Shown here piece by piece: positions 59,666 to 64,000 of a DNA stretch of 64,000 nucleotides; within the stretch, counting starts at the first letter, position 1, and every line of letters begins with the position of its first letter. The position numbers were made by a program, and so were the translations under genes. The notes under the pieces were generated by a model. The model searched no databases, had not been told where the DNA came from, and worked only from the letters and a program-made list of their open reading frames with translations. The DNA comes from Sutcliffiella horikoshii (GTDB lineage: Bacteria; Bacillota; Bacilli; Bacillales; Bacillaceae_I). The stretch spans positions 4,092,001 through 4,156,000 of the forward strand of contig NZ_CP020880.1 of NCBI RefSeq assembly GCF_002157855.1. The letters run 5' to 3'.

Positions 59666-62404
59666 TTAGTGCGTTGGCAACATTTCATTCTCTTCGCATG
59701 CTTTGACCATGAATTCGTATTGGAGCAGGCGTGCTTCGAATAGTTTCAGTGGGTCGTAGTAGCGTTCTGGGCTTGCTTTCATTTGTTCTAGTTTTTTGTT
59801 GGCGTTGTGGATGGCGTGTTCTGTGTCTTCCACGGTTTTGTTCAGTTCTGTGAATGGTGCTTCGTAGAACATGTTGATGTCGGCTTTTAGGGCCTTTTCA
59901 AACAGGTCGAATTCTAGGAAGAACTTATCCACGACGGATTGCGCCACATCTGTGAAGCGTTCGTTTTCGATATATTTTTTATACTGAGTGAAGAGCAGTT
60001 GATTGCTCTGCTGCAAGGAACCGAACAGGCGGCCTGCACCTTTTAGCAAGTATTGAGTGGTGCTCGGGCGGTTTAGGATGTTTTCCTTTTCCACTTCCAC
60101 TCTGCTTAGGATTCTGTTAATGTCTCGACGCCAGTCTTCCATGACCTTAAAGTCACAGTTCAGGTGCATCTTCTCTTCTTTGTATAGATTGTTAAATGTG
60201 CCACTCATTTCCTGCAAAAATTCTTGGCTGTCAATCAGTTCACGGTTGGATGTATCGAGCCATAATTGAAGTTCCTGACGCAAACGAGGCAACAGGTCGG
60301 AATGCATATATGTGCGAATCGTTTCATTCATGCGTTCATTCAATTCAAGATGCAGTGTTTTAAAGTTGCTGTCTTCCTTCACATAGCTAGAGCATTCTCT
60401 AAGCAGACGAGGAATGGTTTTCGCTGCTTCTCTTTTCATTTCGATCGTCACAGCACGGTAATTTTCTGTGATGCTGCGAATCTTTTCGGATTCCGCATCA
60501 TGCAGGTGATTGATAAAACCACTTAGCCTGCTTAGGATATCCTCATTGAACTCCACCGTGTTGGTCAGGTTATCTTCCATCGCAATTCGGCTGTCCAGCA
60601 ATTCTGTTAAGGTAGAACGAATCAGTTGCAACAACTTGGTTGCGCGGCGTTCTTCCACTGCTTTTGCACGCAGTTTGAAATTGGCCTCCATGAAAGTTGC
60701 CAACCCTTGGTGTTGCTTGCTTGCCGAACGAAGGGAGGAGTAAGGGAATACTCTTGCATCCGGGAAGAATTCGTTAATACGATGCTTTGCTTCTTCCACA
60801 ATTTGTGCTGCTTCTGCTTCGTGGAAGGCAGTATCCATTTTATTAATAACAAAGTGTACCGGCACTTCCGGCGCGCGCTCTTTAATTTTCACCAATACTT
60901 TCAGTTCATCTTCTGTAAAAGGTGTTTGCGCGTCTAAAATGTATAATAGTCCGTCTGATAACGGGATATATTTCATCGTTTCGTTGTTTTCAATCGCGTC
61001 TACGCTGAATTCCGGTGTGCTGATTAAAGAGTATTCCTCATCTTCTAGGAACTGAGATGGCCATTTAAGGTCAATTATGGACCCTGCTTTGTGCTCACTA
61101 ATGTCCCCTAAAGCAGAAGTGCCTGTAGTGGAAATCTCATTCATCTCTGCAATATCACCGTTGGAAGAAACAAATACCGGAACCGTTTCATCCCCAAGAA
61201 GCTTTTCGCCAATAATGGAATTGATGAAGGAAGTCTTCCCATTTTGAACGGTACCTGTAACAACTAGGTTTTTTCTGTTTAAATTGCTAAGATGCGAGAA
61301 TAGCCATTTCTTTTGATGCGCCACTTCAAGGTGGTTATCTTTTGCCCAATTGATCAGCGTCTTGAACAACTCGACCGTATAACTCAATTGGATGCTGTCA
61401 TGCTCATAATGGAAAATTCTGTTTTCTGCATCCGCCAATACATGTGCAGGTAATGCTGTTGGGAATACTTCATTCCAAGACATTACCGCTGCAGAAGCAA
61501 ACAGGGATTTAGATCTGTTGGATACTTTCAGCCAGTTTCCAAGTAGATCCGGTACAATGCCTTGCAGTTCTTTGATTAAGTATTCTCCCTCAATAAGAGA
61601 TAAATAGGTATGTTGATGCAGTTCCTCTACTTTTGTCCAAGAGGCCTCCGAATCTCTGTCCAAAGCCATGAATAAATGATTTGCCGTCTTCACCCATTCT
61701 AAATACATTGGATGGTTTTCGTAACTGTTCCATAACGCTGCTGTGATTTCTTCAAATTTCCGTTGATTAATCTCAAGTAACTTTAACAGGACTTCTTGAA
61801 AATAATCAGGAGTGAATTCTCTTGTATACCCAACTTCTATATAATTTTTTAAGCAATCATACCATGCTTCCGAACCGGTTCTCATTGCCTCATTTACAGC
61901 CAACTCCACCGCATGTTGACTGTCTTCTTGCTCTTCATAAAAGGTGCGGGCAGTTTGTGTGACATGCGGATAATCTGGATCGATCGCAATTGCTTTCTTA
62001 ATATTTTTATAGGCATTTTCCAGTTTTTCACGCTGAATATATAAAGTGAATAGCTGAAGGGCCACTTCTATTTTAAGTGTTTTATTATCTGTATTAATTT
62101 TGGCGTAGATATCTTCCGCTTCTACTAACATTCCTAAATCATAGTATGCATCTGCAATATTTTTCTTCGCCCAAGGTTCCAATTCATTGTGAACATTCTC
62201 CCACTTGTATATAGCACTCTCGTAATCTTTGCTATGAAAATATACTTCTCCTTGCGCATACCGAATAAACGAGAGATCTGACACCTCGTTGTTCTGCTCT
62301 GCCAGGAAGGCTTCTCCAAGCACTTGAACAGGATGCTTTGTCTCCACATCCAGCATAAAAGTTTCAAAATACGTTTTGCTAATAAATTTGTTTTCCTGTG
62401 TCAT
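59666..62404 (-). CDS. TPR-containing dynamin-like GTPase
   Basis: A 912-residue protein. The N-terminal ~200 residues are TPR-like (FIRYAQGEVYFHSKDYESAI, NIADAYYDLGMLVEAEDIYA, NAYKNIKKAIAIDPDYPHV). A dynamin-type GTPase domain spans about 370-570: P-loop GTVQNGKTS (384-392), G4 VINKMD (519-524), and the LLYILDAQTPFTEDELKVL helix typical of the superfamily. A long helical stalk follows. The G3 site reads STPEF instead of DTPGF, so hydrolysis may be altered. GGTGGAGG selects ATG 62404. It is downstream of, and on the same strand as, an RHH protein and a ParM-like actin, suggesting a shared machine. I know of no functional study of this arrangement. Confidence 0.85.
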   Translation of the reverse strand: MTQENKFISKTYFETFMLDVETKHPVQVLGEAFLAEQNNEVSDLSFIRYAQGEVYFHSKDYESAIYKWENVHNELEPWAKKNIADAYYDLGMLVEAEDIYAKINTDNKTLKIEVALQLFTLYIQREKLENAYKNIKKAIAIDPDYPHVTQTARTFYEEQEDSQHAVELAVNEAMRTGSEAWYDCLKNYIEVGYTREFTPDYFQEVLLKLLEINQRKFEEITAALWNSYENHPMYLEWVKTANHLFMALDRDSEASWTKVEELHQHTYLSLIEGEYLIKELQGIVPDLLGNWLKVSNRSKSLFASAAVMSWNEVFPTALPAHVLADAENRIFHYEHDSIQLSYTVELFKTLINWAKDNHLEVAHQKKWLFSHLSNLNRKNLVVTGTVQNGKTSFINSIIGEKLLGDETVPVFVSSNGDIAEMNEISTTGTSALGDISEHKAGSIIDLKWPSQFLEDEEYSLISTPEFSVDAIENNETMKYIPLSDGLLYILDAQTPFTEDELKVLVKIKERAPEVPVHFVINKMDTAFHEAEAAQIVEEAKHRINEFFPDARVFPYSSLRSASKQHQGLATFMEANFKLRAKAVEERRATKLLQLIRSTLTELLDSRIAMEDNLTNTVEFNEDILSRLSGFINHLHDAESEKIRSITENYRAVTIEMKREAAKTIPRLLRECSSYVKEDSNFKTLHLELNERMNETIRTYMHSDLLPRLRQELQLWLDTSNRELIDSQEFLQEMSGTFNNLYKEEKMHLNCDFKVMEDWRRDINRILSRVEVEKENILNRPSTTQYLLKGAGRLFGSLQQSNQLLFTQYKKYIENERFTDVAQSVVDKFFLEFDLFEKALKADINMFYEAPFTELNKTVEDTEHAIHNANKKLEQMKASPERYYDPLKLFEARLLQYEFMVKACEENEMLPTH

Positions 62405-62715
62405 TTTACCCTCCACCAATCATTTCACATTATTTTCGTAATTAAAATGATCTAGTAACTTCGTCTCTTGATACAAAAATAGTTATTCTGCTATATAGTT
62501 CGAATGTCTTTTGGATTTTAGGACCATTCTATTCTATACCCTTTTTACCGCAGCTATAACTAATTTGCTAACAAATATTGACCTCATACTACCATATTTC
62601 CCGGGAATAGAAGAAGAGCCTAAAATGGTTAGGCCCTTCCTACTTTTACAACCTCTTTTTTGATATAAGCCCACATAATTAAGGCCGCTAATTTCATAGC
62701 GGCCTTCCATGTCAT
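62405..62715. other. Gap between the RHH and dynamin-like genes
   Basis: Two hairpins on the minus-strand path: AAGGCCGCT (62681-62689) with AGCGGCCTT (62698-62706), 9 nt past the RHH stop, and GAAGAGCCTAA (62613-62623) with TTAGGCCCTTC (62629-62639), then TTCTTCT. Both may attenuate read-through into the GTPase gene. An open frame at 62534-62719 spans both hairpins and is not credible. Confidence 0.55.
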
Positions 62716-63288
62716 TCATTTATTCATATGTGAAAGAAAATCTCCCAATATTTTATCGACATCTTCCACATCCAACTCTTCCTCTTCTTCCGTTGACGCC
62801 TGCTCTTGGAGAGCTGTGTCCCAGTCAAAAGAGTCTAAGTCATCATCGTTTAATACGTTAGCATTCACCTTTTCATCTGTCTCTTCATCAGAATTGTATG
62901 GCTTATCCTCTTGAAGGTACAAAGCTTGGTCAATATCCGTAGAATTGCTGTTCATCGCCGCGAGAATGCTTGTTGCACGCACAGGGTCTGAAAGCAACTG
63001 ATAGACGATATTGCCGAGCAATGCCTCCGAATGCTGATGCTTCAACCAATCCCTTTGTGTTTTAGATAAAGATTTAGGAAGTGGAATAGAAATTGTCTCT
63101 TTTTCGCGTGCATGTGAACTTGTCACACCTTGAAGAACAAATTCTGCTATTTTACTAGAGAAATTCCTTCTTTCTGTCTCTTTTAGACGTTGTAAATGCT
63201 TAATTAGATGGTCAGGCGTATCAGAAGGGATACGGAACGAAATAGCTTGTCCCCTCTGAATCCCCTGACTCGAACTGGAATTCTTCAT
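62716..63288 (-). CDS. Ribbon-helix-helix DNA-binding protein (ParR/AlfB-like adaptor)
   Basis: A 190-residue protein. Residues about 14-55 fit a ribbon-helix-helix: strand QAISFRIPSD, helix TPDHLIKHLQRLKETER, helix NFSSKIAEFVLQGV. A second predicted unit (about 65-110: ISIPLPKSLSKTQRDWLKHQ) precedes a very acidic disordered tail ending DVDKILGDFLSHMNK. RHH plus a flexible acidic tail is the design of plasmid ParR adaptors that link DNA to ParM filaments. AAGGTG precedes the ATG. It starts 13 bp after the ParM-like gene. Confidence 0.78.
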   Translation of the reverse strand: MKNSSSSQGIQRGQAISFRIPSDTPDHLIKHLQRLKETERRNFSSKIAEFVLQGVTSSHAREKETISIPLPKSLSKTQRDWLKHQHSEALLGNIVYQLLSDPVRATSILAAMNSNSTDIDQALYLQEDKPYNSDEETDEKVNANVLNDDDLDSFDWDTALQEQASTEEEEELDVEDVDKILGDFLSHMNK

Positions 63289-63301
63289 CCAATCACCTTA
63301 T

Positions 63302-64000
63302 TTACGCTTTCACAGGTTTTTGTTGTTCTTTGGACTCTTTATCCTTGCCTGTTTTCTTTACATAGTCAGCAATCAATTTGTAGTAGGCATTTGCCATCAT
63401 CCAGATGCTTTCTTTTTCATCTTCAAAGAAGTCGATATTGTAGCCGTCTAGATTGTTGTTAAGTGTTTTTAGGTATTCTTTAAGGACAGTTGAACCACCG
63501 CCAACGAAATAGCAAATCTCCGTTTGGGAATTCTTCTGCCAAATATTTCTCAACAGGCGGTATTGTTTTTTCGCTAAGTCTAAAAGAATGCGGTCCGTGA
63601 TATCATGCACGCTCGTTCTACTACCACGTACCATGATGTGGTTGCGGTCATTCTTTTTCGTAATGATCTCTACCACATCTCTTCTGCTATCAAGCTCGAT
63701 GCCGTGTTTAGAACGAATTTCCTCACGAATTTGCTCAAGTGCTTCAGATACTCCAAGGTTAAAGCCTTGTGCTTTGTCATCATCCACATTACGGTTTTTG
63801 ATGACAGCGATATCTGTGGAAAGACCGCCGATATCTTGGATAAGGATGCGCTTGTCGATCAAGTCTTTATTGATGATGTTGCCGTTGTTATCTAATACAA
63901 GGTTAATGTAAGCTGCGAAGCCCTCTGGATAAACCTTGATTTCATCAAATTTAATATTAACTTTGATGCCTTGGTATTTAGGTGTAATTAAGAATTCCAC
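63302..64000 (-). CDS. ParM/StbA-family actin-like ATPase (5' end outside the window)
   Basis: The visible 232 residues are the C-terminal two thirds of an actin-like ATPase: phosphate-2 motif LIQDIGGLSTDIAVI, adenosine-binding FVGGGSTVLKEYL, and the helical segment DRILLDLAKKQYRLLRNIW. The reading frame is open to the window edge, so the start lies beyond 64000. Polymerising ParM-type actins segregate plasmids; this copy sits among housekeeping genes, with an RHH adaptor gene immediately downstream in the same operon. Confidence 0.88.
   Translation of the reverse strand: MEFLITPKYQGIKVNIKFDEIKVYPEGFAAYINLVLDNNGNIINKDLIDKRILIQDIGGLSTDIAVIKNRNVDDDKAQGFNLGVSEALEQIREEIRSKHGIELDSRRDVVEIITKKNDRNHIMVRGSRTSVHDITDRILLDLAKKQYRLLRNIWQKNSQTEICYFVGGGSTVLKEYLKTLNNNLDGYNIDFFEDEKESIWMMANAYYKLIADYVKKTGKDKESKEQQKPVKA

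Follow-up and report, generated by a model that had tools for sequence, protein, structure and literature searches.

Alp7A-Alp7R-alp7C is a partition system of Bacillus plasmids. Chromosomal ParABS (Soj/Spo0J-parS) has an origin-proximal centromere with a DNA-binding adaptor. In this study, we analyzed 64,000 nucleotides of the Sutcliffiella horikoshii chromosome, hereafter the window (bases 4,092,001-4,156,000 of the 4.28-Mb contig NZ_CP020880.1). The genes of interest lie in its last 4.3 kb: an actin-like gene of the Alp7A/ParM type, a gene for a ParR-like adaptor of putative ribbon-helix-helix (RHH) type, and a gene for a protein with TPR repeats and a dynamin-type GTPase domain. Since dnaA is present on the same contig, the setting is chromosomal. 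We consider it probable that the actin gene, the RHH gene, and an upstream array of short sites make up a complete chromosome-borne ParMRC (Alp7ARC-like) cassette, whose most likely task is to position the origin region.

Chromosome-encoded ParMs are described, in the excerpted text of Ali et al. (2025; PMC12270681), from Desulfitobacterium, Clostridium, Bacillus tropicus, and others, and their role is left open there. The same excerpts report that Dh-cParM1 is conserved across a genus and that Cb-cParR binds a cparC; they name Bt-cParMR-1/2 of B. tropicus, describe Bt-cParM as conserved in Bacillus species, and propose a role beyond plasmids for genome-encoded ParMs. Like the cParMR of these excerpts, the present cassette consists of a ParM with an adjacent ParR on the chromosome and is conserved between species; as far as the excerpts describe that kind, the present clade belongs to it. 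The two differ in several respects. In the excerpts, no conserved cparC is identified for the Clostridium cParMR, whereas the array described here was detected in 38 of the 40 other genera tested. Their passages on the origin and oriC give no cassette position, whereas the cassette here lies within 234 kb of dnaA in 29/29 genomes. Measured against those excerpts, the order-wide conservation of three parts, the enlarged conserved array, and the constant origin proximity are new. No report on this clade was found among open-licence PMC papers.

The cassette shares with the plasmid Alp7 type an actin that is 41-44% identical to five plasmid ParM/StbA proteins, a homologous adaptor, and the same gene order. 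It is distinct from that type in its chromosomal location, its larger GTNNAC array, and its adaptor tail, which reads LLGDFLAxMNK here and TFLxFDDDD on the five plasmids. A ParMRC is carried by the plasmid it stabilises; this cassette instead lies on the 4.28-Mb dnaA contig and has no plasmid relative of at least 60% identity. AlpA-AlpC-alpS of the Corynebacterium prophage CGP3 also combines an actin, a DNA adaptor, and sites on a chromosome-resident element, and according to the parts of the two sources used here it serves viral DNA in the prophage (PMC4446434, PMC5539076); here, by contrast, only five weak phage matches were found, at no more than 27% identity. ParABS uses a Walker-type ATPase and ParB rather than an actin and an RHH-like adaptor, and genes of the ParB family coexist with the cassette in the genomes checked.

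The actin-adaptor pair and its upstream array

The features of the locus are as follows, in window coordinates unless a contig is named.
63302..64000, minus strand: actin-like ATPase of the Alp7A/ParM type, C-terminal 232 of 403 amino acids (aa); from open reading frames (ORFs), Pfam, and PHROG
62716..63288, minus strand: ParR-like adaptor, 190 aa; from the orthologue alignment, homology to plasmid ParR-position proteins, and position after the actin
L002:7618-7790, equal to contig C1 4156618-4156790, outside the window and upstream of the actin: parC-like array; from the GTNNAC site count
62681..62706, minus strand: hairpin, read as terminator of the actin-RHH unit; from folding energy and a stem kept in the loci of the genus
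59666..62404, minus strand: protein with TPR and a dynamin-type GTPase, 912 aa; from Pfam Dynamin_N and TPR matches; a neighbour outside the cassette

The full actin gene (L002:6302-7513, 403 aa) extends 513 bases beyond the window end. A sequence-only reading of the window had described actin, RHH-like, and TPR-dynamin genes in series on one strand, the first two 13 bp apart, in a chromosomal setting without replication or mobility genes. The minus-strand ORFs are as it described them, the actin stop and the RHH start were again found 13 bp apart, and the nine scanned neighbours of the cassette on the dnaA-bearing contig included no replication or mobility gene.

The full actin matches Pfam ALP_N (2.7e-9) and Alp7A_like_C (4.1e-38), both above the Pfam cut-offs, and the PHROG 'partition protein' (1.4e-42). 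Among named genomes its nearest match, at 99% identity, is in Sutcliffiella horikoshii. A PDB sequence search with the single actin gave nothing at E 0.001; with an actin profile, weak matches to Clostridium ParM were obtained (0.0029). Assignment to FcmB, a morphology actin, was rejected (NCBIfam NF052678 scores 26.7 against a cut-off of 300 bits).

The 190-aa protein has no Pfam domain match, and a PDB search with its profile found nothing convincing. It is homologous to the ParR-position proteins of five plasmids (tblastn 6e-13 to 1e-22; HH probability 99.8%). Alignment of 20 orthologues revealed conservation in the N-terminal part and in the C-terminal peptide LLGDFLAxMNK, with a variable acidic linker between the two, a layout resembling that of ParR with its filament-binding tail. 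The RHH reading is based on the homology to plasmid ParR-position proteins and on the strand-helix-helix order in a low-confidence AlphaFold model. Two RHH units in tandem, at which the same low-confidence model hinted, were dropped after a profile comparison of the two halves gave 0.2% probability.

Pairing was evaluated in 40 loci of other genera, one per genus, taken from actin-bearing genomes, and in 80 named loci, which were the best of 428 confirmed and are thus biased to close relatives. The RHH gene follows the actin gene in 40/40 of the former (identity to the present proteins, 79.8-87% for the actin and 49.5-68.5% for the RHH protein) and in 80/80 of the latter, where the alignable parts are 17-30 bp apart in 71/80. 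When the ORFs of the 80 loci were clustered, only the actin and RHH families occurred in all; the next commonest family was present in 21/80. Row L107 was left out of the actin alignment, as its match range contained a stop. The ParM-ParR-type pair proposed by the sequence-only reading is borne out by this adjacency and by the HH probability, and the two genes are a conserved pair of predicted ParM-ParR type.

That reading had also suggested a search for parC-like repeats upstream of the actin gene, and an array is indeed present beyond position 64000. In the own genome, the 450 bp upstream of the actin gene contain 14 GTNNAC sites, mostly GTATAC, GTAAAC, GTTTAC, GTGTAC, and GTACAC. Across 51 loci (40 of other genera, 11 of the own genus), the mean is 11.5 GTNNAC sites per 450 bp versus 2.0 in shuffles, and the count exceeds all 200 dinucleotide-preserving shuffles made per locus in 49/51. 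The distances between site starts peak at 8 and 12 bp, and in an 18-locus alignment the sites are conserved and the spacers less so. The spaced triple GTNNAC-2-GTNNAC-6-GTNNAC has three matches in the own genome, all inside the array (backward-read control, 1). Among 24 further near-complete genomes, the triple occurs in 21 and lies beside the actin gene in 20; 57 of its 58 matches there are beside the actin gene and one is elsewhere (G026), with a backward control of 25 in all. Relative to the plasmid relatives, the chromosomal array is a putative centromere that is enlarged or different.

Two further observations concern the array region. A vegetative promoter after the array was considered and is not claimed: a TTGA...TATACT-like consensus is visible in the 18-locus alignment, but a promoter scan gave 6 sites, no more than the 7.9 expected from shuffles. 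In two loci, L265 (G300) and L266 (G358), the GTNNAC array upstream of the actin gene is present twice, with a distance of about 0.8-0.9 kb between the two. The intervening ORF fragments resemble the beginning of the adjacent gene, which by eye encodes an oxidoreductase, so that this is a local duplication. Both genomes share a genus with G194, a contig of which matches Peribacillus simplex.

That the array travels with its operon is compatible both with a single centromere on the chromosome and with an elaborate operator. The actin could be a resident cytoskeletal element with another job, in cell shape, spore formation, or the organisation of a complex, and the array mainly an operator for ParR autorepression. 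This alternative, which we regard as unlikely yet the most serious of the rivals, would account for an array placed directly upstream of the actin gene, with only one match elsewhere in 25 genomes, and another actin-like family, FcmB, acts in cell morphology according to the excerpt of PMC12645912. About 14 sites over about 170 bp with 8/12-bp phasing were nevertheless judged excessive for self-repression; the plasmid relatives have few sites, against an operator-only view; and the conserved ParR tail suggests that the DNA-bound adaptor is still coupled to the filament.

Distribution, history, and position near the origin

The actin was found in 16/16 genomes of the genus and in 17/18 of the family; the sole family genome without it, G016, has the dynamin gene. 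In the order sample it is present in 204 of 397 genomes at E 1e-20 and in 56 of 132 genera, and 203 of the 204 matches, with E < 1e-200, form one tight group, the last being distant. In the class sample, 59/398 genomes match at E 1e-20; 24 of these matches are at least 76% identical and all others at most 45%. PF22128 proteins were absent from 14 control genomes, among them Bacillus subtilis. By homology, the cassette is related to the plasmid Alp7A type, and it resides on the chromosome in roughly half of the order genomes sampled.

Among 72,556 plasmid records, 115 match the actin, all below 60% identity (top-ranked, 43.7%). A tree of 56 sequences places the 50 chromosomal members of the clade in one group apart from the five plasmid sequences (support 100/99, in a bootstrap that had not settled). 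Taxonomic families are mostly non-monophyletic inside the chromosomal clade. Strict vertical inheritance is unsupported by the tree; lineage exchange, losses, or a lack of signal must all be allowed for as sources of its apparent poor fit to families. The mean protein distance over 29 genomes is 0.167 for the actin versus 0.142 for DnaA, a comparison affected by truncated DnaA sequences in five genomes (G000, G151, G178, G191, G313). Three of seven genus pairs were usable and gave an actin dN/dS (nonsynonymous to synonymous substitution rate ratio) of 0.012, 0.020, and 0.012, although one of these pairs, L112, is saturated (dS 4.4); such values indicate strong purifying selection. The pairs not used were three with infinite dS and L116, an artefact that arose because the aligner had dropped a stop symbol.

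These results bear on two explanations that involve plasmids. The cassette might have been left by plasmid integration, as the sequence-only reading had allowed, and now be neutral or serve visiting plasmids in trans. Homologs on Bacillaceae plasmids (ParM 41-44% in the five compared, ParR 32-39%) are what such a history would leave, but the one tight group in 203/397 order genomes, the actin dN/dS of about 0.01-0.02, the lack of any plasmid relative of at least 60% among the 72,556 records, the array kept beside the cassette, and the absence of rep or mobility genes from the nine scanned neighbours make it very unlikely. An integrated phage remnant was likewise unsupported, the only phage matches being the five weak ones. 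Alternatively, a chromosomal parC/ParR/ParM might interfere with incoming Alp7-type plasmids in an incompatibility-like defence. Plasmids of related hosts do carry homologous systems, such as pBM69 of Bacillus methanolicus; adaptor and centromere have diverged from them (RHH identity 32-39%, another site density), and cross-interference is therefore doubtful. None of the three proteins matched a PADLOC family at E 0.001, a result that also leaves the phage-defence role suggested by the sequence-only reading without a family match. We give the incompatibility explanation very little credence.

Some database names and genomes call for comment. Records titled Pseudomonas, Chryseobacterium, and Paenibacillus (L172, L175, L188) each carry an 87% actin copy, and plasmid contig L261 of a clade-bearing genome is titled Arthrobacter; these names look wrong. 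Five genomes of one genus (G201, G344, G177, G245, G286) are without the origin-proximal clade and have 2-4 other Alp7A-type genes each; G201 and G344 have plasmid contigs that match Priestia megaterium.

The position of the actin gene was examined in all actin-bearing genomes under study with dnaA on the same contig, 29 in number. In 29/29, it is found to the left of dnaA, at a distance of 34-234 kb (median 90 kb), and occupies the opposite strand, so that its transcription runs away from the origin. The genes flanking the cassette differ between genera; the position is therefore kept while the neighbours turn over. As these genomes are related, the origin-proximal position is suggestive of a role rather than a formal test of it. 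For the actin as a cytoskeletal element with an operator, the position in 29/29 would be left unexplained.

ParB-family genes were found near dnaA, two per genome, in 26/26 genomes, 25 of which have the actin. The cassette is thus present in addition to ParABS-type genes. Six genomes have a further, distantly related ParM-like gene (30-37% identity) about 2 Mb from dnaA (G191:C1:2349378, G116:C1:3324540, G258:C1:839728, G247:C1:2797764, G129:C1:2497169, and G288:C1:2821118); that of G191 is accompanied by an RHH-like gene (34%) but by no array.

The TPR-dynamin gene as a neighbour

The sequence-only reading had joined the filament, the adaptor, and the dynamin-like GTPase into one system. Its description of the third protein, 912 residues with TPR and a dynamin-like GTPase, is confirmed by Pfam (Dynamin_N 1.5e-7, TPR matches weaker); the ORF finder places the start of the gene at 62419, with TTG. 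Dynamin is not mentioned in the excerpted text of PMC12270681.

The dynamin gene adjoins the pair in 11/11 loci of the genus, including the own genome, and is co-oriented. It adjoins the pair in 12/80 named loci as well, co-oriented in 12/12, and all of these belong to the genus group of the window: seven records are named Sutcliffiella and five bear Bacillus names with 91-98% actin identity. By contrast, it is near the pair in 0/40 other-genus loci within about 3 kb and in 0/68 other named loci within about 6 kb, or less at contig ends. In 15 compared genomes of other genera with both genes on one contig, actin and dynamin genes are separated by 60 kb to 1.65 Mb. In 15 of the 29 genomes used for the position, all outside the genus, the distance between the dynamin gene and dnaA ranges from 93 kb to 1.7 Mb, with the dynamin gene to the left in 5 and to the right in 10. 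The TPR-dynamin protein is itself widespread (196/397 order genomes, 63/132 genera), with 34-52% identity outside the genus among the matches listed.

The hairpin that the sequence-only reading had noticed in the gap before the third gene starts 10 bases past the RHH stop (62706 down to 62681). With its flanks, it has a folding energy of -22.4 kcal/mol (z -4.4), and 0/200 shuffles were as stable. No T run follows it in the own genome, and a simple terminator scan did not list it. A near-identical stem followed by TTTTT is present in 8/12 genus loci; for this reason the hairpin is read as a terminator between the pair and the dynamin gene. The RHH-dynamin gap ranges from 307 to 1240 bp across the 12 genus loci. 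In nine of them (L155, L156, L158, L160-L163, L165, L166), the gap has room for an extra ORF of 112-171 aa starting with ATG; that of the own genome is too short for one. In other genera, the 75 bases behind the RHH gene fold below -10 kcal/mol at each of the 70 loci where the RHH match is complete; for want of a shuffle comparison, this figure is not used as evidence of terminators.

A joint action of filament, adaptor, and TPR-dynamin GTPase on a membrane or on phage DNA would be in keeping with the adjacency and co-orientation of the three genes in the genus loci and with a weak co-occurrence in the order. In the 397 genomes, both genes occur in 124, the actin only in 80, the dynamin gene only in 72, and neither in 121 (odds ratio 2.6 overall and 2.3 when the own genus is excluded, with no correction for kinship). 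The 80 actin-only and 72 dynamin-only genomes, the lack of adjacency outside the group, and the separation of the GTPase from the pair by a terminator-like hairpin and a gap with ORF room render this joint action hardly credible. Since the GTPase gene adjoins the pair in one genus only, the three-gene system is not co-conserved, which is what the neighbourhood comparison proposed with the sequence-only reading has shown. The TPR-dynamin gene is thus, by its distribution in the compared genomes, a genus-specific neighbour (Sutcliffiella) and not a part of the cassette. With the three-gene novelty gone, a candidate chromosomal, origin-proximal ParMRC is well supported by the comparisons.

Proposed role of the cassette

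Several results weigh against a ParMRC cassette that positions the origin region. As for the proteins, the AlphaFold model of the actin, from a shallow alignment, has a mean pLDDT (predicted local distance difference test) of 47.6 and is too poor for a check of the ParM fold, and the low-confidence model of the adaptor, also from a shallow alignment, has a mean pLDDT of 57.5. No RHH family in Pfam matched any of 20 orthologues of the adaptor at E 10; the RHH/ParR-like protein of the sequence-only reading accordingly stands in its ParR homology and acidic linker, and its RHH fold lacks a family match and a confident model. As for the array, the test failed at two loci, with L089 equal to the best shuffle and L098 below it, and the exact triple is not beside the actin gene in 4/24 genomes, three being without a match and G026 having one elsewhere. 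The five plasmid relatives have 0-5 GTNNAC sites in the 500 bp upstream; the array is therefore not simply a plasmid parC. The clade is absent from 194/397 order genomes, and the cassette is therefore dispensable in the order. The actin tree fits the families poorly (39 label changes against a minimum of 29 and a shuffled mean of 46.9, with 0/200 shuffles as low), and actin and DnaA distances agree only in part (Pearson 0.49, Mantel 0/2000, Spearman 0.14), which makes exchange between lineages likely. Given the kinship of the 29 genomes, the position may simply have been inherited. With ParABS-type ParB in 26/26 genomes, a second segregation system is not obviously needed, a point that also speaks for the cytoskeletal alternative.

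The array is favoured as a centromere over an operator because of its site number and phasing, the conserved tail of the adaptor, and the origin position. By analogy with ParMRC, as generally understood and as presented in the excerpts of PMC12270681, the following mechanism is proposed. At 34-234 kb to the left of oriC, many ParR molecules would bind the approximately 14 TGTATACA-like sites and form a nucleoprotein platform. Their conserved tails would hold the ends of ParM filaments, and growth or shrinkage of the filaments could push, pull, or anchor the two sister origin regions. The cassette would act in addition to the resident ParABS system. The three parts with their conservation, the array at the locus, the homology to plasmid partition proteins, and the origin-proximal chromosomal location are observed; ParR binding to the array, filament formation, and an action on the origin region are inferred.

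In its most specific form, the proposal is that a domesticated ParMRC with an enlarged parC moves or anchors sister origins beside ParABS, possibly in sporulation, in much of the Bacillaceae. We put this forward tentatively, as a possibility that falls somewhat short of an even chance, and the link of the cassette to sporulation is speculation. In B. subtilis, polar capture involves a region situated to the left of the origin.

The genetic case is strong: three conserved parts, a near-origin array, an occurrence in dozens of genera, a conserved adaptor tail, and an actin divergence close to that of DnaA. The cassette near the origin of many Bacillus relatives is thus a testable candidate for actin-driven chromosome positioning. 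If the proposal is false, a strongly conserved bacterial actin is still without a known job; if it is true, the movers of bacterial chromosomes would include actin filaments besides ParABS and SMC.

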